Below are positions 3,227 to 60,120 of a DNA stretch of 64,000 nucleotides, in pieces. Source of the DNA: Diadema setosum (taxonomy: Eukaryota; Echinodermata; Echinoidea; Diadematoida; Diadematidae); NCBI RefSeq assembly GCF_964275005.1, contig NC_092685.1:28884682-28948681 (forward strand), in the 5' to 3' direction. Numbering within the stretch: the stretch's first letter is position 1; each line of letters starts with the position of its first letter. Both the position numbers and the translations under genes were made by a program. The notes beneath the pieces are model-generated. The model ran no database searches. It was not told where the DNA came from and worked only from the letters and a program-made list of their open reading frames with translations.

Positions 3227-3718
3227 TTGTGATAATGATACAAAAGGAAAAGATACGTTTCACTTTGATTAAAAATAAAATGAATAAAAGTAATAACAGC
3301 CTGGATTCATGATAGTCACAGTATAGTGTCATCCTTATTTCATCCTACCGTCTGGGATACAAAGCACTTACAAGGCAGTATGCAAGGCATAACATCTGAT
3401 AAAAAAAAAACAACCAAACAAACAAAACATGCGATGTAAGGTCCTACATTTTAAATCATGGCAAAGCCGAATATCCATTCAAAGCTTTATTCCTTTTTCG
3501 TTTTCAATAGGCTCTCTTTGGATATGACAGATCGCGTACGAGGCCCTATATAGGCCCCTACGTATTTCTTTGAGCGGCGTTTGCACAATTCTGTGTCATT
3601 ATTTGTGTCAAGGAATGATTCAAAGCGCTTTTCATAATTTGTACCAGAAAGTGCCAAGGATCAGTGTAGAAGCCATCAACCCCCCCCCCCCCCCCCCCCG
3701 TGCTATAGGGATATTATA

Positions 3719-9433: not shown

Positions 9434-10621
9434 TCATTTTCCCGAAGTGTCGATGACCCTACCAATGAACAAAGTGCTCTGTGTAGGGCGATGCCAAATC
9501 ACGAAAAGGAAAGGATGATCAACTCGGAAGTTAACGGGCTTCGGGGGGTCGCGACGAACGGAATCGCAGCAATTAAATACATACCTAACTGCAGTTGCAG
9601 CGGCAGCCTCACTGCCCTCTTCATTAATCTCGACAAAGGCCTTGTGGACCACATCAGAGATGTACAGATCACGATTACCCGAGATGCCCTCAAAGTTGGC
9701 CTTGTTTTCGTCAAACGCGTCTGTCATTCCCATGTCACTCAGGACCCCGTTCAGATTGAATTCATCTTCCACTCGGACTTTCGGCAGCCAGATATTGACC
9801 AATCTCTCTTTGAGATTATCATTCCATCGTTTGAGCGTGTCGACAGACAGGTTGGCTTCAAGGTGCGCGAGACCATCATCTTTGTTGGGCAAAGCAATCA
9901 ACATGCTGAAATTATTGCCTTCATAAGGCAACTCCAACACCATGCAGTCCAGGGCGTTGTCCTCGGCTAGTTTAAAATCATCGGACTGGTGCATGAGTTG
10001 CACTGGTACCGTTTTCCTTTCATCCAGGACCCTGAAGACCGACTGATTAGTTTGGCGTGATATAAATGGTGATGCCCATGGTCCTTTGAAATATATTGCA
10101 TTCACTAGTACCATGCGTGTAAGAGAATCCAGAGCTGAGGGTGAGATCAAGTTCTTTATCTTCCCTTCTGTCTGTTCAGAGACCCAGTAGTTGATAGTAT
10201 GGGCTACCTCTGGTAATGCGAAGTCGGCAACCGCTTCTATGGTGGAATCATAAGATGCTGCGGCAGTGTTAAGGAACTCTTTAGAGAACGGATATCCAGC
10301 CTTTCCGTACAATTTGTGTGCAGATCTGATTTCACAATGCGCGATTGGATCGTGCATAAAGGAATGGAGCTGTTTGAATGCCTCGTGAAGATGGTCACCG
10401 TCCAGATCGCTAAATCGCAGCACGTTTGATATTTGTGTCGCTGTTTTACCGCAAGCTCCAGCGTATGTCATAGCCAAGGCAGTTGATATGCTTAAGGGGG
10501 AAAAGAAGATATTTTGTCCCCTCCGTGTATCTGCTATTTGTTGGTACATGTCTAGCGCGAATGCATTGTTGGCTTCGGCAAGCTGGGATGTAGGTATCGT
10601 CGGGTGGGTCGATGATGCCAT
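9434..10621 (-). CDS. Serpin 1 (intracellular clade B-like serine/cysteine protease inhibitor)
   Basis: A 395-residue full-length serpin in one coding exon. There is no signal peptide, so it probably acts in the cytoplasm or is released by a non-classical route, like ov-serpins. Visible landmarks are NIFFSPLSISTALAMTYAGA (about 38-57), LVNAIYFKG, the breach region, hinge EEGSEAAAATA (about 334-344) and the serpin signature FRVDHPFLFVI near the C-terminus. An Ala-rich hinge with T at P8 is the pattern of inhibitory serpins. Counting 15 residues from hinge G336 puts P1 at about N350, with F at P2 and CC at P1'-P2'. The loop is two residues longer than in serpins 2 and 3. A likely 3' splice site (ctacctgcag) lies about 22 nt before the ATG, so an untranslated 5' exon is expected. 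A minus-strand AATAAA lies at 9380-9385, about 50 nt past the stop. Closest relative in the window is serpin 2. The target protease cannot be told. Confidence 0.95.
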   Translation of the reverse strand: MASSTHPTIPTSQLAEANNAFALDMYQQIADTRRGQNIFFSPLSISTALAMTYAGACGKTATQISNVLRFSDLDGDHLHEAFKQLHSFMHDPIAHCEIRSAHKLYGKAGYPFSKEFLNTAAASYDSTIEAVADFALPEVAHTINYWVSEQTEGKIKNLISPSALDSLTRMVLVNAIYFKGPWASPFISRQTNQSVFRVLDERKTVPVQLMHQSDDFKLAEDNALDCMVLELPYEGNNFSMLIALPNKDDGLAHLEANLSVDTLKRWNDNLKERLVNIWLPKVRVEDEFNLNGVLSDMGMTDAFDENKANFEGISGNRDLYISDVVHKAFVEINEEGSEAAAATAVRYVFNCCDSVRRDPPKPVNFRVDHPFLFVIWHRPTQSTLFIGRVIDTSGK

Positions 10622-25613: not shown

Positions 25614-25657
25614 ACATATCCAGGGAGGTGGTCTCTCTTTCACCTCCCTGACATATC
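25614..25657. mobile_element. 30-bp hairpin insertion with 7-bp direct repeats (microhairpin 1)
   Basis: 25621-25650 is CAGGGAGGTG, a 10-nt pyrimidine-rich loop, then CACCTCCCTG: a perfect 10-bp stem. It is directly bordered by ACATATC on the left (25614-25620) and ACATATC on the right (25651-25657), as a target-site duplication would be. The same termini with a different 7-bp repeat occur at 55031-55067. Confidence 0.75.
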
Positions 25658-37228: not shown

Positions 37229-38410
37229 TCAGTTTCCTGAGGTGTCCATGACCCTACCAATGAACAAAGTGCTCTGTGTAGGGCGATGACAAATCATAAA
37301 AAGGAAAGGATGATCAGCCCGGAAGTTAACGGGCTTCGGGGCGTCGAGAAAGACACAACCGCCAAATGCCATCATAACTGCCGTTGCAGCGGCAGCCTCA
37401 CTACCCTCTTCATTAATCTCGACAAAGGCCTTGTGGACCACATCAGAGATGTACAGATCACGATTACCCGAGATGCCCTCAAAGTTGGCCTTGTTTTCGT
37501 CAAACGCGTCTGTCATTCCCATGTCACTCAGGACCCCGTTCAGATTGAATTCATCTTCCACTCGGACTTTCGGCAGCCATATATTGACCAATCTCTCTTT
37601 GAGATTATCATTCCATCGTTTGAGCGTGTCAACAGAAAGGTTGGCTTCAAGGAGCGCGAGACCATCATCCTTGTTCGGCAGAGCAATCAACATGCTGAAA
37701 TTATTGCCTTCGTAAGGCAACTCCAACACCATGCAGTCCAGGGCGTTGTCCTCTGCTAGTTTAAAATCATCGGACTGGTGCATGAGTTGCACTGGTACCG
37801 TTTTCCTTTCGTCCAGGACCCTGAAGATCGACTGATTTGTTTGGTATGATTTGAATGGCGATGCCCATGGTCCTTTAAAGTATATTGCATTCACCAGCAC
37901 CATACGTGTGAGAGAATTCAGTACTCCGGGTGAGATGAAGTTCGTTATCTTTCCTTCTGTCTGTTCAGAGACCCAGTAGTTGATAGTATGGGCTACCTCA
38001 GGTAAGCCGAAGTCGGCAACCGCTTCTATGGTGGACTTATAAAATGCTGCGGCAGTGTTTAAGAACTCTTTAGAGAAAGGGTATCCAGCCTTTCCGTACA
38101 ATTTGTTTGCAGATCTGAGCTTGCAACGCGCGATTGGGTCGTGCATATAGGAATGGAGTTGTTTAAATGCCTCGTGAAGTTGGTCACCGTTAACATCCCT
38201 AAATTGCAGCACGTTTGACATTTGTATCGCTGTTTCATCGCCAGCTCCGGCGTAAGTCATTGCCAAGGCGGTTGAGATACTCAAAGGGGAAAAGAAGAGA
38301 TTTTGTCCCTTCCGTCCACCTGATACTTGTTGGTACATGTCTAGCGCGAATCCATTGTTGGCTTTGGCCAGCTGGGCTGTAGGTCTTGTTGGGCGCGTCG
38401 ATGATGCCAT
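37229..38410 (-). CDS. Serpin 2 (intracellular clade B-like)
   Basis: A 393-residue serpin in a single coding exon, starting at the ATG at 38410 (MASSTRPTRPTAQL). The open frame extends four codons further up without another ATG. A 3' splice site (ttctaactgcag) lies shortly upstream, as in serpin 1. Landmarks: NLFFSPLSISTALAMTYAGA, hinge EEGSEAAAATA, signature FRADHPFLFMI. P1 is predicted at G350 (15th from hinge G336), with F at P2 and C at P2'. No signal peptide. Residues from about 205 to 345 are almost identical to serpin 1, whereas the N-terminal part is roughly 80% identical and the reactive loop is unrelated. It is flanked downstream by the 525-bp tandem duplication. The protease target is unknown. 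A glycine P1 is unusual, so the true cleavage bond may be shifted to F349 or nearby. Confidence 0.95.
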   Translation of the reverse strand: MASSTRPTRPTAQLAKANNGFALDMYQQVSGGRKGQNLFFSPLSISTALAMTYAGAGDETAIQMSNVLQFRDVNGDQLHEAFKQLHSYMHDPIARCKLRSANKLYGKAGYPFSKEFLNTAAAFYKSTIEAVADFGLPEVAHTINYWVSEQTEGKITNFISPGVLNSLTRMVLVNAIYFKGPWASPFKSYQTNQSIFRVLDERKTVPVQLMHQSDDFKLAEDNALDCMVLELPYEGNNFSMLIALPNKDDGLALLEANLSVDTLKRWNDNLKERLVNIWLPKVRVEDEFNLNGVLSDMGMTDAFDENKANFEGISGNRDLYISDVVHKAFVEINEEGSEAAAATAVMMAFGGCVFLDAPKPVNFRADHPFLFMICHRPTQSTLFIGRVMDTSGN

Positions 38411-39829
38411 GGCAAATGACAAGGTAAAAATCTGCAGTTAGAAAAGGGAAGGATACAAAATGTAGTTTACATCACTTACAGAGATACAATTTGAGCGAAT
38501 ATGCGTTCACAATAGTCTCAGGAACTTTTGACGAGTAGAAACGTATGTTTATGATTCAGAAATAGTCTTCGATCGCGCTCATTTGGTCCTTACGTCATTC
38601 GTGTCGTATTCTTCCCTCTTTTTTTTGTTGTTCATAATTATGTTAAAACAAAGCATATAGGATAGTGATGAATGTCTTCGAGCACAGGGGTGAAAATGAT
38701 CCCTTGCGACAACACGAAAACAGAACAAAACTAGACCTATAAAAGTGGCATCGTGGTGTATGTAGGCTCTATATAAAGGAAATTATAGATATATGCTCCT
38801 GTATTGATCGCGAAGTATTTTTAAGTGCGACGAAATAAAATGTATGTAAAAGTAAGTTATCGTGTCACCTATTCTGATAAAAAATGTATGTAGTATTTAT
38901 ATTGTATTGCAAAATAGCTCAATTCGGCCTGCTGCGGACTATCATGGGTTGTTCCGTTGTTTCTGTTGTTAAGTAAATGTACATAGATGTATGTGTATAC
39001 CTAAATGCATTGTTGTTCATTGGAAAGGTTATACAATACATCATTCTCATTGCATTTTCAAGTGTATTTCTTAAAGTTCCCTATACTAGTGTGTATGTGT
39101 TGTTGTTGTTTCTTTTTTACATACAGTGTAGTTTTGTCCCGTGACTTCGGATTATCATAAATGGACGCGCGATAATAATGTTATGGGCAGAAGAACGTTT
39201 AGTATGTACTTGGGGTGAAGAAATTTCAGTGTAATTTTCATGTGTTTTGTACAACTTATTTGATGTAACGTGTCATAACTGCAACGAAATAAATCATGTG
39301 ATTGTAATCACATCAGTTCATTGTTCTTCATTGTCCTGTTACAAAAATTCTCGAATATGACTTGATTCCTTGGAAACATCGGAGCTGTAAACTGCAACTC
39401 CACAACATACCAAAATAAAGTTAAACAACAACTGAACTGAATGTGCGTTATTCCTTCAAACCAACTTAAACATGGAAATGTATTTTCCTCAGTGGTACAC
39501 GATATTGTTGGCACTTAGGACAGGTTCTCAAACGTATTGCCAAGTATTTTTTTTATTATGTTTTTTTTATTGATCGTTCTATACGTACATAATCCAATCT
39601 ATCGTTATCGTAAGAACATGAAAAAGTCTTCATGACAATGGAGTGAAATCCTGAAGAGAAAACTGCATTTACATGCTAGTTTATCCAGGCCTGGGGCATA
39701 CCAGTCAACTTTTAATGTCTCGAGAATACGATCCAAACATAATTTAGTACAAGTGTAAAGGGCCTACGTACTAAAGGACGTCTTCAATGAAAAAAACAAA
39801 TAAACATAACTCTATTCTATAGAGCTTTT

Positions 39830-43790: not shown

Positions 43791-44071
43791 TTTGTAAGTA
43801 TATGTATACCAGTACACTGTAAGCATGACATGTAAGTACATGTATTTCTGAATACATTGTAAGTACAGTATGCATAATATACACACAATATATTTATATG
43901 CTATTTTAATGTGAAAAATGAAATTTTTGTAAGTAAATTTTGTAAGTATATGTATACCAGTACACTGTAAGTATGACATGTAAGTACATGTATTTCTGAA
44001 TACATTGTAAGTACAATATGCATAATATACACACAATATATGCTATTTTAATGTGAAAAATGAAATAGAAA
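43791..44071. repeat. 148-bp direct tandem duplication
   Basis: TTTGTAAGTATATGTATACC starts at 43791 and again at 43939. The two copies are nearly identical through the end of the shared region at about 44071. Differences: a few substitutions and a small deletion near ATATATTTATATGC. Recent origin; non-coding. Confidence 0.85.
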
Positions 44072-45078: not shown

Positions 45079-46257
45079 TTAAGCAGTGTCCATGACTCGC
45101 CCAAGGAATAAGATCGTTTGGCTCTCACGGTGACAAATCATGAACAGGAATGGATGGTCAGCCCGAAAGATAATTGGCTTCTCTGGTTCACGTGGCATGG
45201 CACAACGCAAATTCATAACAACAGCTGTTGCTGCTGCTGCTTCACTTCCCTTTTCATTCACATCCACAAAAGCCTTGTGGACAACTTCAGAGATAAAGAG
45301 GTCTTGTTTTCCTGAAATGCCTGAAAAATTAGCTCTGTTTTCATCAAAGGCATCCTTCATTCCCATCTTGACAAGGACTTGATTTAGACTGAACACATCT
45401 TCCAGTTTAAACTTTGGCATCCAGACTTTGGCAAGCTTCTTTCGTAATTTCTTATTCCAGCCTTGAAGTACTTCAGCAGACAGTTTCTCTTCGAGCTTTG
45501 GAAGGCCATCATCCTTGTTTGGCAAAATGACCAGCATATTCAAATCTTGACCCTGGTATGGCATTTCTAAGACAATGCATTCATTAGCGTCATCTACAGC
45601 AACCGGAAATTTACCAGACTGAAACATGAGATTGACAGGTACTTTCTGACGGTCATCAAGAACTTTGAAAACATCTGCTTTAGTTTTGTTAGCATTAAAC
45701 TGAGATGCCCAGTTCCCCTTGAAGTAGATGGCATTCACTAGGACAAGTCTTGTCAGTGGTCCAAGCACTCCAGGTGCAATGAGGTCTTTAATCTTTCCAT
45801 TGGTCTGTTCAGAGACCCAATCATTAATGCTCTTCCTTGCTGCAGGAGATCCAAAATCTGGCACAGCTTCTACCATGGAATCATAAAACTCTGCCGCAAT
45901 TTGCAGGAACTCTTCAGTGAATGGATACGCTGCTTTTCCATACAGCTTGTTGGCAGTTTTGAGCGTGTAACCAGGATTCTGAGTGAAGAGATGTGTTGTT
46001 AGTTCCTTGAAGGCTTGATGAACTTTGTTGTCGCTAAATTTGCTGAACTGAAGCACACTGGACATTTGTAATGCTGTATCTTCTCGAGCTCCAATGTAGG
46101 TCATGGCCAAAGCAACTGAGATGCTGAAGGGAGAGAAAAACAGGTTCTTGTTCTGTTTTTCCCCCTTCAGGGCTTGGAAAAGTTGCATCCCAAAAGTGTT
46201 GTTTGCAACAGCTAGCTGCTCTGCATGCCTGGTTGGTGGCTGTTTGGAAAGGGCCAT
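45079..46257 (-). CDS. Serpin 3 (intracellular clade B-like, Arg at P1)
   Basis: A 392-residue serpin in a single coding exon. ATG at 46257, with a likely 3' splice site (cttatattgtag) about 10 nt upstream, matching serpins 1 and 2. Landmarks: NLFFSPFSISVALAMTYIGA (about 38-57), LVNAIYFKGNW, hinge EKGSEAAAATA, signature FRADHPFLFMI. No signal peptide. Counting from hinge G337, P1 is R351 and P1' is C352 (sequence VVMNLR|CAMPRE). An Arg P1 predicts inhibition of trypsin-like proteases, an inference from the known P1 rule. It is clearly older than the serpin 1/2 split. Its loop has the same length as serpin 2 and is two residues shorter than serpin 1. Confidence 0.95.
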   Translation of the reverse strand: MALSKQPPTRHAEQLAVANNTFGMQLFQALKGEKQNKNLFFSPFSISVALAMTYIGAREDTALQMSSVLQFSKFSDNKVHQAFKELTTHLFTQNPGYTLKTANKLYGKAAYPFTEEFLQIAAEFYDSMVEAVPDFGSPAARKSINDWVSEQTNGKIKDLIAPGVLGPLTRLVLVNAIYFKGNWASQFNANKTKADVFKVLDDRQKVPVNLMFQSGKFPVAVDDANECIVLEMPYQGQDLNMLVILPNKDDGLPKLEEKLSAEVLQGWNKKLRKKLAKVWMPKFKLEDVFSLNQVLVKMGMKDAFDENRANFSGISGKQDLFISEVVHKAFVDVNEKGSEAAAATAVVMNLRCAMPREPEKPIIFRADHPFLFMICHRESQTILFLGRVMDTA

Positions 46258-58501: not shown

Positions 58502-60120
58502 CCAAAGTCTCCTGACTAAATGACAAGAACATGCACAATATCCGGTGTGCATGGTCTCCAGATGGAGTTGCACGGATGAGAGTTAGAGGTTTCATCATGG
58601 TTATGCCACTTGGATGCTTACCCCATACTGGAAACATGGAATGCTATGGGGTAAGACAATGTGTAGTGGTTGCTACAGTTCAGCCAAAGTCAGCAGGCAA
58701 CTCAATGGAGATTTTTTTTTTCGACTGGCTTGCTCAGTAGGAGACTTACTTACCTTTCAGTTACATCAGACTTGTTCGTATTCATGCGCATAAGTGAGAC
58801 AAATCTTGTTACCCCAATGAAACTTGTTTGTGTGGCTTTTAATGTTGTTCATTAAATTTCAATTTTGATCAAGAAATTGCATGTACAGGTACCATATTCA
58901 AAGTGCATTGATTGTACGAGACCATGTTGGCTTCAATGCTACAGACACTGCCAGAAATCATGTATGTACACCTGTATTGAAGTACATACTGGTATATTGT
59001 GTACTAGTACTCTATACAGTGTAGTATGGTCATGGAGGTATACCCCCTTGGTATAGTATGGGCTCTGTATTGAATGTTTGAATGCAAAATAAAGAACTCA
59101 TAATACATTACTTTTTTTTAATGTAAATTATTGGAAAGGGAACATTTAGAACAATTGGAAGTTCCACTGCTATTTGGTCAATTAGTGGTTAAGATTTTTC
59201 CCCACAGTTGCCTATAAATAAGAATGCTATGCACCAATTAATTTGATGGCAGGGATGTACATGTATGTCTATACAGATCCTGTATTTGACCAGTCATGTT
59301 TGACAGGTGTGTACGTGTGTACATGTATAATGGTTCTCTTCCACCCTGAAAGCGTAATTGGCAGCCAAATTTATATAGCTATATGTCAATTGGTGTCGTG
59401 TTTAACTGTAGATATGAATGTTATTTTCATAGATTCAAGAGTTCAGTTGATATCCAAAGTTGACCGTGCCCATCCTAGGAATGACCTATCGATGTATGAT
59501 TAATTGTGCAAGTTAGAACACGGGGTACGATATCCATGGATGAAATAAATAATCGCAATGTGAAAGGAATGGTGAGTCACAACAGGTGTATTCACTGTGT
59601 TTGCTTTGTGCAGAAGTCTAGTTTACCAGCATAAGAAGATGAATATTAGGACATTACTTGTATCTTTCTTTCTTTCTTTTTCTTTTTGTAATGTTCAAAT
59701 CTCATCCATGTTTCTACGGAATTAAGATATCGAAAGGGTCCAATCTTCTTTGACGGGCGGCGGTATGTTGAGTCGTGGCAGGGGAAATGACGGGAGCTCG
59801 TGAAGTCTACTCTAGGACAATAAATTGTCAAGAAATTGGTAGGTCTCCTTCATAGAGATACATTGTAATATGCATGTATACTACAGAATGCGTTGATATC
59901 TCTACATCTCCTTCAACTGCGCCCTCACAGTCGAATCTTCGCCACCAAAGCAAAGCAGTGCTATGGTGTGAATGTCGTTTCATCGAACAGGCTTCTCAAA
60001 CTGACTTCATGGGTCTTATGTACATTGCAAAGCGTATTCAGCCCATGCACACGCACACACACGCATATGGTGTATATGTTTAAATATCTATATTATACTT
60101 GATGTATATAACTGTGAAAA
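58502..60120. other. Gene-free stretch
   Basis: Short frames only. A TTTC-type microsatellite is at about 59667-59688. Around 59740-59830 the sequence is somewhat richer in C+G. No exon was recognised. Confidence 0.5.

Follow-up and report, generated by a model that had tools for sequence, protein, structure and literature searches.

Two hairpins in the genome of the sea urchin Diadema setosum raise the question of whether very short palindromes with flanking direct repeats are mobile elements of minimal size or the remains of something larger. Both lie in a window of 64,000 nucleotides (G000:C1:28884682-28948681), by which we mean the whole stretch of DNA that was analyzed. The first hairpin, at positions 25621-25650, reads CAGGGAGGTGGTCTCTCTTTCACCTCCCTG and has ACATATC immediately on each side. 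It folds as DNA into a 10-bp stem with a 10-nt loop (z = -4.7), and none of 200 shuffled sequences was equally stable. The second, at 55038-55060, reads CAGGGAGGTGTAAGACCTCCCTG and has TTCATAT immediately on each side. No such pair of ends occurred in 100 dinucleotide-shuffled versions of the window. The original prediction had described a 10-bp stem bordered exactly by ACATATC and a second unit with the same ends and another 7-bp repeat, and both descriptions were confirmed. It had explained them either as minimal mobile hairpins or as extreme derivatives of a larger family. Our answer, in which we have high confidence, is that the hairpins are excision footprints of a P-superfamily transposon and not mobile micro-hairpins. 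The corresponding features of the window are as follows.

25614-25620, no strand: target-site duplication ACATATC, left copy, 7 bp (read from the sequence; 37 of 61 independent sites genome-wide are exact at 7 bp)
25621-25650, no strand: proposed P-type excision footprint 1, a 10-nt end stub CAGGGAGGTG, then GT, then 18 nt from the opposite end, CTCTCTTTCACCTCCCTG
25651-25657, no strand: target-site duplication ACATATC, right copy, 7 bp (read from the sequence)
55031-55037, no strand: target-site duplication TTCATAT, left copy, 7 bp (read from the sequence)
55038-55060, no strand: proposed P-type excision footprint 2, a 10-nt end stub, the 4-nt filler TAAG, and 9 nt from the opposite end
55061-55067, no strand: target-site duplication TTCATAT, right copy, 7 bp (read from the sequence)
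59031-59050, no strand: possible decayed footprint CATGGAGGTATACCCCCTTG, a weak candidate with three end mismatches and flanks (GTATGGT and GTATAGT) that agree at 6 of 7 positions

Footprint 1 would divide into 10 + 2 + 18 nt, a reading that draws in part on the ceiling of about 18 nt in the genome-wide arm counts given below; the donor of its exactly matching subfamily was not among the elements that we met. Footprint 2 would likewise divide into 10 nt, TAAG, and 9 nt. The decayed candidate came from a mismatch-tolerant scan of the window, for which 10 shuffles each gave no match. A separate scan, open to hairpins of any sequence as long as an exact 7-bp repeat flanked them, returned the two known units and one 20-bp unit, present twice; five shuffled controls gave 0, 1, 0, 0, and 0. 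This 20-bp hairpin, CATGTATTTCTGAATACATT, has GTAAGTA on both sides and lies at 43839-43858 and 43987-44006, with a spacing of 148 bp. A cluster of serpin genes surrounds the hairpins (9434-10621, 37229-38422, and 45079-46257, all on the minus strand), with frames of 395, 397, and 392 amino acids that match PF00079 at E values of 2.2e-122 or better. At the window edge, positions 13-612 on the plus strand encode a reverse-transcriptase RNase H domain (PF17917) from a retroelement fragment. Scans of the window against Rfam, at the gathering threshold, and for tRNAs gave no matches.

The two hairpins belong to a large family. A genome-wide search for the pair of ends, as had been suggested, found CAGGGAGGT-N0-30-ACCTCCCTG at 3,615 places in 912.7 Mb (102 contigs), compared with one place for the reversed-pattern control. 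We viewed about 140 of these places as sequence, including 73 distinct ones with their flanks, and merging sites with similar flanks left 61 that were independent. Duplications of the 7 to 8 bp that characterize members of the P superfamily were frequent in this set: 37 of the 61 sites carried an exact duplication of 7 bp and 2 carried one of 8 bp. Pairing flanks from different sites gave an exact 7-bp match in only 1 of 3,660 comparisons. Inverted termini with 7-bp direct repeats do point to transposition, as the original prediction held. No exact duplication of 5 to 9 bp adjoined the unit at 22 sites, and 7 of the 61 overall matched at 6 of 7 positions. Among 49 distinct sites in the first 12.4 Mb of contig C1, identical 7-mers flanked 25 and identical 8-mers flanked 2 more. 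The duplicated 7-mer preferred G or C at position 1, T at position 2, A at positions 5 and 6, and C at position 7 (consensus G/C-T-N-N-A-A-C), which over the 61 sites approximates the palindrome GTYNRAC. The assembly probably holds thousands of natural footprints, a share of them being copies carried by other repeats. Because 11 of the 61 sites had been picked for full arms or a particular interior, counts of interiors are better taken from 50 listed places.

Excision would produce such units in a few steps. Insertion of a P-superfamily transposon would create a duplication of 7 bp, or sometimes 8 bp. When the element left, its transposase would cut one strand at the tip of the element and the other about 18 nt within the terminal repeat, so that each chromosome end would keep a 3' overhang with as much as 18 nt of terminal repeat. 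End joining would trim the overhangs, sometimes add a few bases, and seal the break. The product would consist of two end stubs, the second reversed, between the two copies of the duplication. The Drosophila literature describes comparable steps: P transposase makes a one-strand cut 17 nt inside the terminal repeat, generating 17-nt 3' extensions (PMC7776569), and end joining at donor sites leaves the 8-bp duplication and no more than 17 nt from each end, with microhomology or short insertions at the junction (PMC2895639).

Alternatively, units of 18 to 48 bp might be mobile in their own right, moved in trans by a P-type transposase. Such mobile micro-hairpins would account for inverted ends next to 7-bp repeats and for a copy number in the thousands, as well as for the recurrence of a 29-bp type at two sites with different duplications (L106 and L108; L107 is an A-variant) and of a 36-bp type, composed of 18 + 18 nt, at different sites. 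However, interiors were distinct in 46 of 50 among the listed matches of the 3,615. We did not find a single interior repeated at unrelated sites in the manner of a MITE or micro-hairpin; only simple joins recurred across different sites. The recurrent units were either the simplest joins (18 + 18 and 18 + 11), which end joining could make repeatedly, or units that shared flanks. In particular, flanks aligned within each of the recurring complex types of 48, 41, and 30 bp (16 sites together with L021 and L037), so these units appear to have been carried or copied by other repeats. Types with an arm of about 30 nt shared flanks wherever they were viewed and were therefore counted as few events. 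One 30-bp unit, ending in AGAAACACCTCCCTG (L098 to L102, G000 contigs C3 and C4), is a single scar repeated within another repeat; on C3, three of its copies lie at intervals of about 680 bp.

Size also argues against self-mobility. Units measured 37 bp or less in 47 of 50 among the listed matches of the 3,615, and those of 49 to 78 bp were found at only 159 places, making them about 20 times rarer than units of 18 to 48 bp. Among 50 listed of these 159, a second end lay inside 46: 28 belonged to a single 67-bp type, interpretable as two scars side by side, and a loose motif test found a further end within 18 others. The remaining four were single, and two of these, at G000:C3:20923138-20923201 and G000:C6:28319779-28319832, are CAGGGAGGT units that enclose second palindromes with other ends (CATGGACCTAC... 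and CACAGAACTCT..., respectively), as if other families had left scars within CAGGGAGGT scars. At the lower extreme, 18 bp is too short to accommodate internal binding sites. Mobility of the P element in D. melanogaster requires no less than 138 bp at one end and 216 bp at the other (PMC1562414), so a unit of 23 or 30 bp should be immobile. With distinct interiors, a size ceiling, and shared flanks in the recurring complex types, we rejected mobile micro-hairpins as highly improbable. The class of minimal mobile hairpins that had been predicted is therefore unsupported: interiors are site specific, arms are capped at about 18 nt, and recurring complex interiors sit inside other repeats.

The length of the arms bears on a second alternative, namely, that ordinary MITEs or larger copies were reduced by internal deletion when synthesis was interrupted during gap repair and became immobile afterward. 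Internally deleted P elements are common (PMC7776569), and the 48-bp type, with arms of about 30 and 18 nt, suits partial repair synthesis. The 48-bp type and its variants, in which one arm reaches about 30 nt, may themselves be products of interrupted gap repair. As a general explanation, however, deletion of this kind predicts arms of any length. We examined 88 listed places at which one arm measured 18 nt or more and set aside 45 rows assigned to one of three recurring types (48, 41, or 30 bp) or their variants, including all rows with an arm of about 30 nt. The assignment to these types rested on aligned flanks for 16 fetched sites along with L021 and L037 and on interior sequence for the remaining rows. 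In the 43 rows that were kept, the match to the donor-type end extended for 18 nt in 33, 19 nt in 9, 20 nt in 1, and 21 nt or more in none; base 19 was C in 22, T in 11, and A in 10. Arms beyond 20 nt were absent from these filtered rows, the 45 dropped rows including longer-armed hitchhikers, and the approximately 20-fold deficit of units of 49 to 78 bp likewise disfavors gap-repair deletion, which we consider very unlikely to have made the hairpins in general.

Under the excision reading, the ceiling of about 18 nt, determined after 45 of 88 rows, some longer armed, had been dropped, would correspond to the stagger of the present transposase, just as Drosophila stubs do not exceed a stagger of 17 nt. 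The counts used one donor-type end as the template for both arms, and the left end of the donor-like element described below differs after base 15. Donor-type right ends (on C14, on C5, and at L111/L120) continue past base 18 as AGGAGTGGAATC, so the stop at 18 nt is a real boundary and not the end of the repeat. Partner arms in the 43 rows spanned 9 to 18 nt. Their junctions contained no inserted base in 26 cases and a one-base overlap in 2, and the largest gap was 8 nt. Together with the 46 of 50 distinct interiors, these gaps of at most 8 nt show the varied junctions and short filler of end joining. Exact 18 + 18 joins (36 bp) were found at a minimum of 12 places, and of seven examined, six had an exact 7-bp duplication and one had a match at 6 of 7 positions. 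We also took 20 eighteen-nucleotide ends outside the listed short units, drawn from about 100 listed of 509 matches. By manual reading, eight were shortened forms of the hitchhiking 48-bp types, two had one shared flank, two were scars with a mutated far arm, and eight ran into unrelated sequence past base 18. The last eight could be one-armed scars or the ends of other donors.

A longer element with the same ends, another expectation of the original prediction, exists in at least one copy. The P-type transposase RNase H domain PF21787 matched at 52 places in the genome and in none of 14 control genomes. One of the 52 places, on contig C14, is an element of 3,928 bp with TTTATAC on both sides. 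Its ends (CAGGGAGGTGGAAAA.../...TTTTCCACCTCCCTG) are the same as the scar ends; it starts with CAGGGAGGTGGAAAAGAG and finishes with CTTTTTCCACCTCCCTG. The terminal inverted repeat (TIR) of 15 bp, combined with a duplication in the 7- to 8-bp range, has the form of a P-superfamily transposon. A frame of 481 amino acids within the element matches the P-type RNase H domain (PF21787, E = 1.2e-25) and the structure of Drosophila P transposase (6p5a, E = 3e-9). Because the frame ends just past the first, N-terminal half of the RNase H domain, the C14 copy is probably incomplete. No THAP domain was recognized in the frame, where zinc-finger matches were weak and under the cutoff. The interior of the element contains two short scars (L081:365-389 and 486-507) with perfect 7-bp duplications (GTTAATC and CTAGGAC), one of which has mutated ends, as well as three single ends (L081:622, 714, and 1063), all within 3.9 kb, compared with a genome-wide rate of about one exact scar per 250 kb; this perhaps reflects insertion of such elements into one another. 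CAGGG-type termini are common among hAT elements, whose duplications are 8 bp long and whose footprints lack long end stubs; although the similar terminus here might suggest footprints of that or another superfamily, the mostly 7-bp duplications, the stubs of up to 18 nt, and the P-type transposase domain in the sole both-ended donor leave this explanation with almost no credence.

Donors are scarce. The C14 element is nearly unique, its left end having one partial relative and its right end four weaker ones, and among the P-like loci examined we found no second donor with both ends. Exact CAGGGAGGT or ACCTCCCTG was absent from the P-like loci on C6 (8.5 kb joined), on C12, C10, and C15 (6 kb each), and on C22 and C9 (6.5 to 7 kb); with one mismatch, these longer-flank loci gave one end match on C6 and two on C12. 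Loci L050 to L068, viewed with 1.5-kb flanks, had no full CAGGGAGGT end. The end query CAGGGAGGTGGRAAGAGACGGC had one match, and scar subfamilies with GTGAGAC or GTGAAAGAGAG arms had no donor among the elements met. This scarcity may reflect excision without reinsertion, the old age of the family, or donors that were not recognized, nonautonomous donors lying outside the count. A stronger proposal is that a P-type transposase in this lineage excises far more readily than it reinserts, such that the family has been nearly purged while thousands of its scars were kept. We regard this as rather unlikely, although half-activity of this sort has a precedent in zebrafish, where THAP9 excises its element but integration was not seen (PMC10983969). 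If true, the family would be known chiefly through its disappearance.

Comparison with known systems places the scars close to those of Drosophila P, from which their mechanism and anatomy are already known, and the 7-bp, rarely 8-bp, duplications and palindromic target are known from Galileo. Repair junctions of P{wa} share the flanking duplication, inverted stubs capped by the stagger, and joins that are blunt or made through microhomology or short filler; they differ in the cap (17 nt versus 18 nt here), in the duplication (8 bp versus mostly 7 bp), and in coming from a laboratory assay instead of thousands of sites within one assembly (PMC2895639). Galileo, a Drosophila member of the P superfamily, has 7-bp duplications, with 8 bp in three copies, and the consensus GTATTAC or GTANTAC (PMC4168063). 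The scars resemble it in the 7-bp and occasional 8-bp duplications and in the palindromic target GT...AC, whereas Galileo has long TIRs and the C14 donor has one of 15 bp; the main text of the Galileo papers does not contain the word "footprint" (PMC4168063, PMC2775673). Zebrafish Pdre2, with its transposase THAP9, is similarly a P-type element of a noninsect animal with a short TIR (13 bp). It has 8-bp duplications and CATACC ends, unlike the mostly 7-bp duplications here; donor sites were repaired after its excision, some with flanking deletions, and the zebrafish report counts at least 50 P-homologous sequences, not thousands of scars (PMC10983969). P-MITEs of Anopheles gambiae are also noncoding derivatives with P-element ends and target duplications. 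However, they form families in which a central region unrelated to P lies between two ends derived from P, each shorter than 100 bp, while the hairpins here keep no more than about 18 nt per end and as a rule share no interior (PMC1562414).

Among the predicted explanations, extreme derivatives of a larger family came closest: the units look like remnants left after a larger element was cut out. The history may extend beyond one family. Near a P-like gene on C12 (L086:838-877, G000), a 40-bp unit with CATTGAGGTAG.../...CTACCTCCATG at its ends lies between perfect copies of CCATTAG. It looks like a scar of this kind with different ends and suggests a second end type, CATGGAGGT...ACCTCCATG. Such scars also seem to come from two or three additional types of end, so several P-like families may have gone in the same way.

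Excision footprints are usually studied as small sets from laboratory crosses or cells. In the literature, covered by titles and abstract openings with most subscription papers outside the search, we found no description of genome-wide P-type footprints of this kind, or of a genome with thousands of P-type scars and hardly any recognized donor. The set offers a readable record of old transposon departures. It suggests where an uncharacterized P-type transposase cuts (18 nt), which targets it prefers (approximately GTYNRAC), and how the germ line joins broken ends, and scars that hitchhiked mark the spread of their host repeat. More generally, palindromes of 18 to 40 bp with duplications can be scars and not tiny mobile elements, and past transposon activity can be far greater than counts of intact copies indicate.
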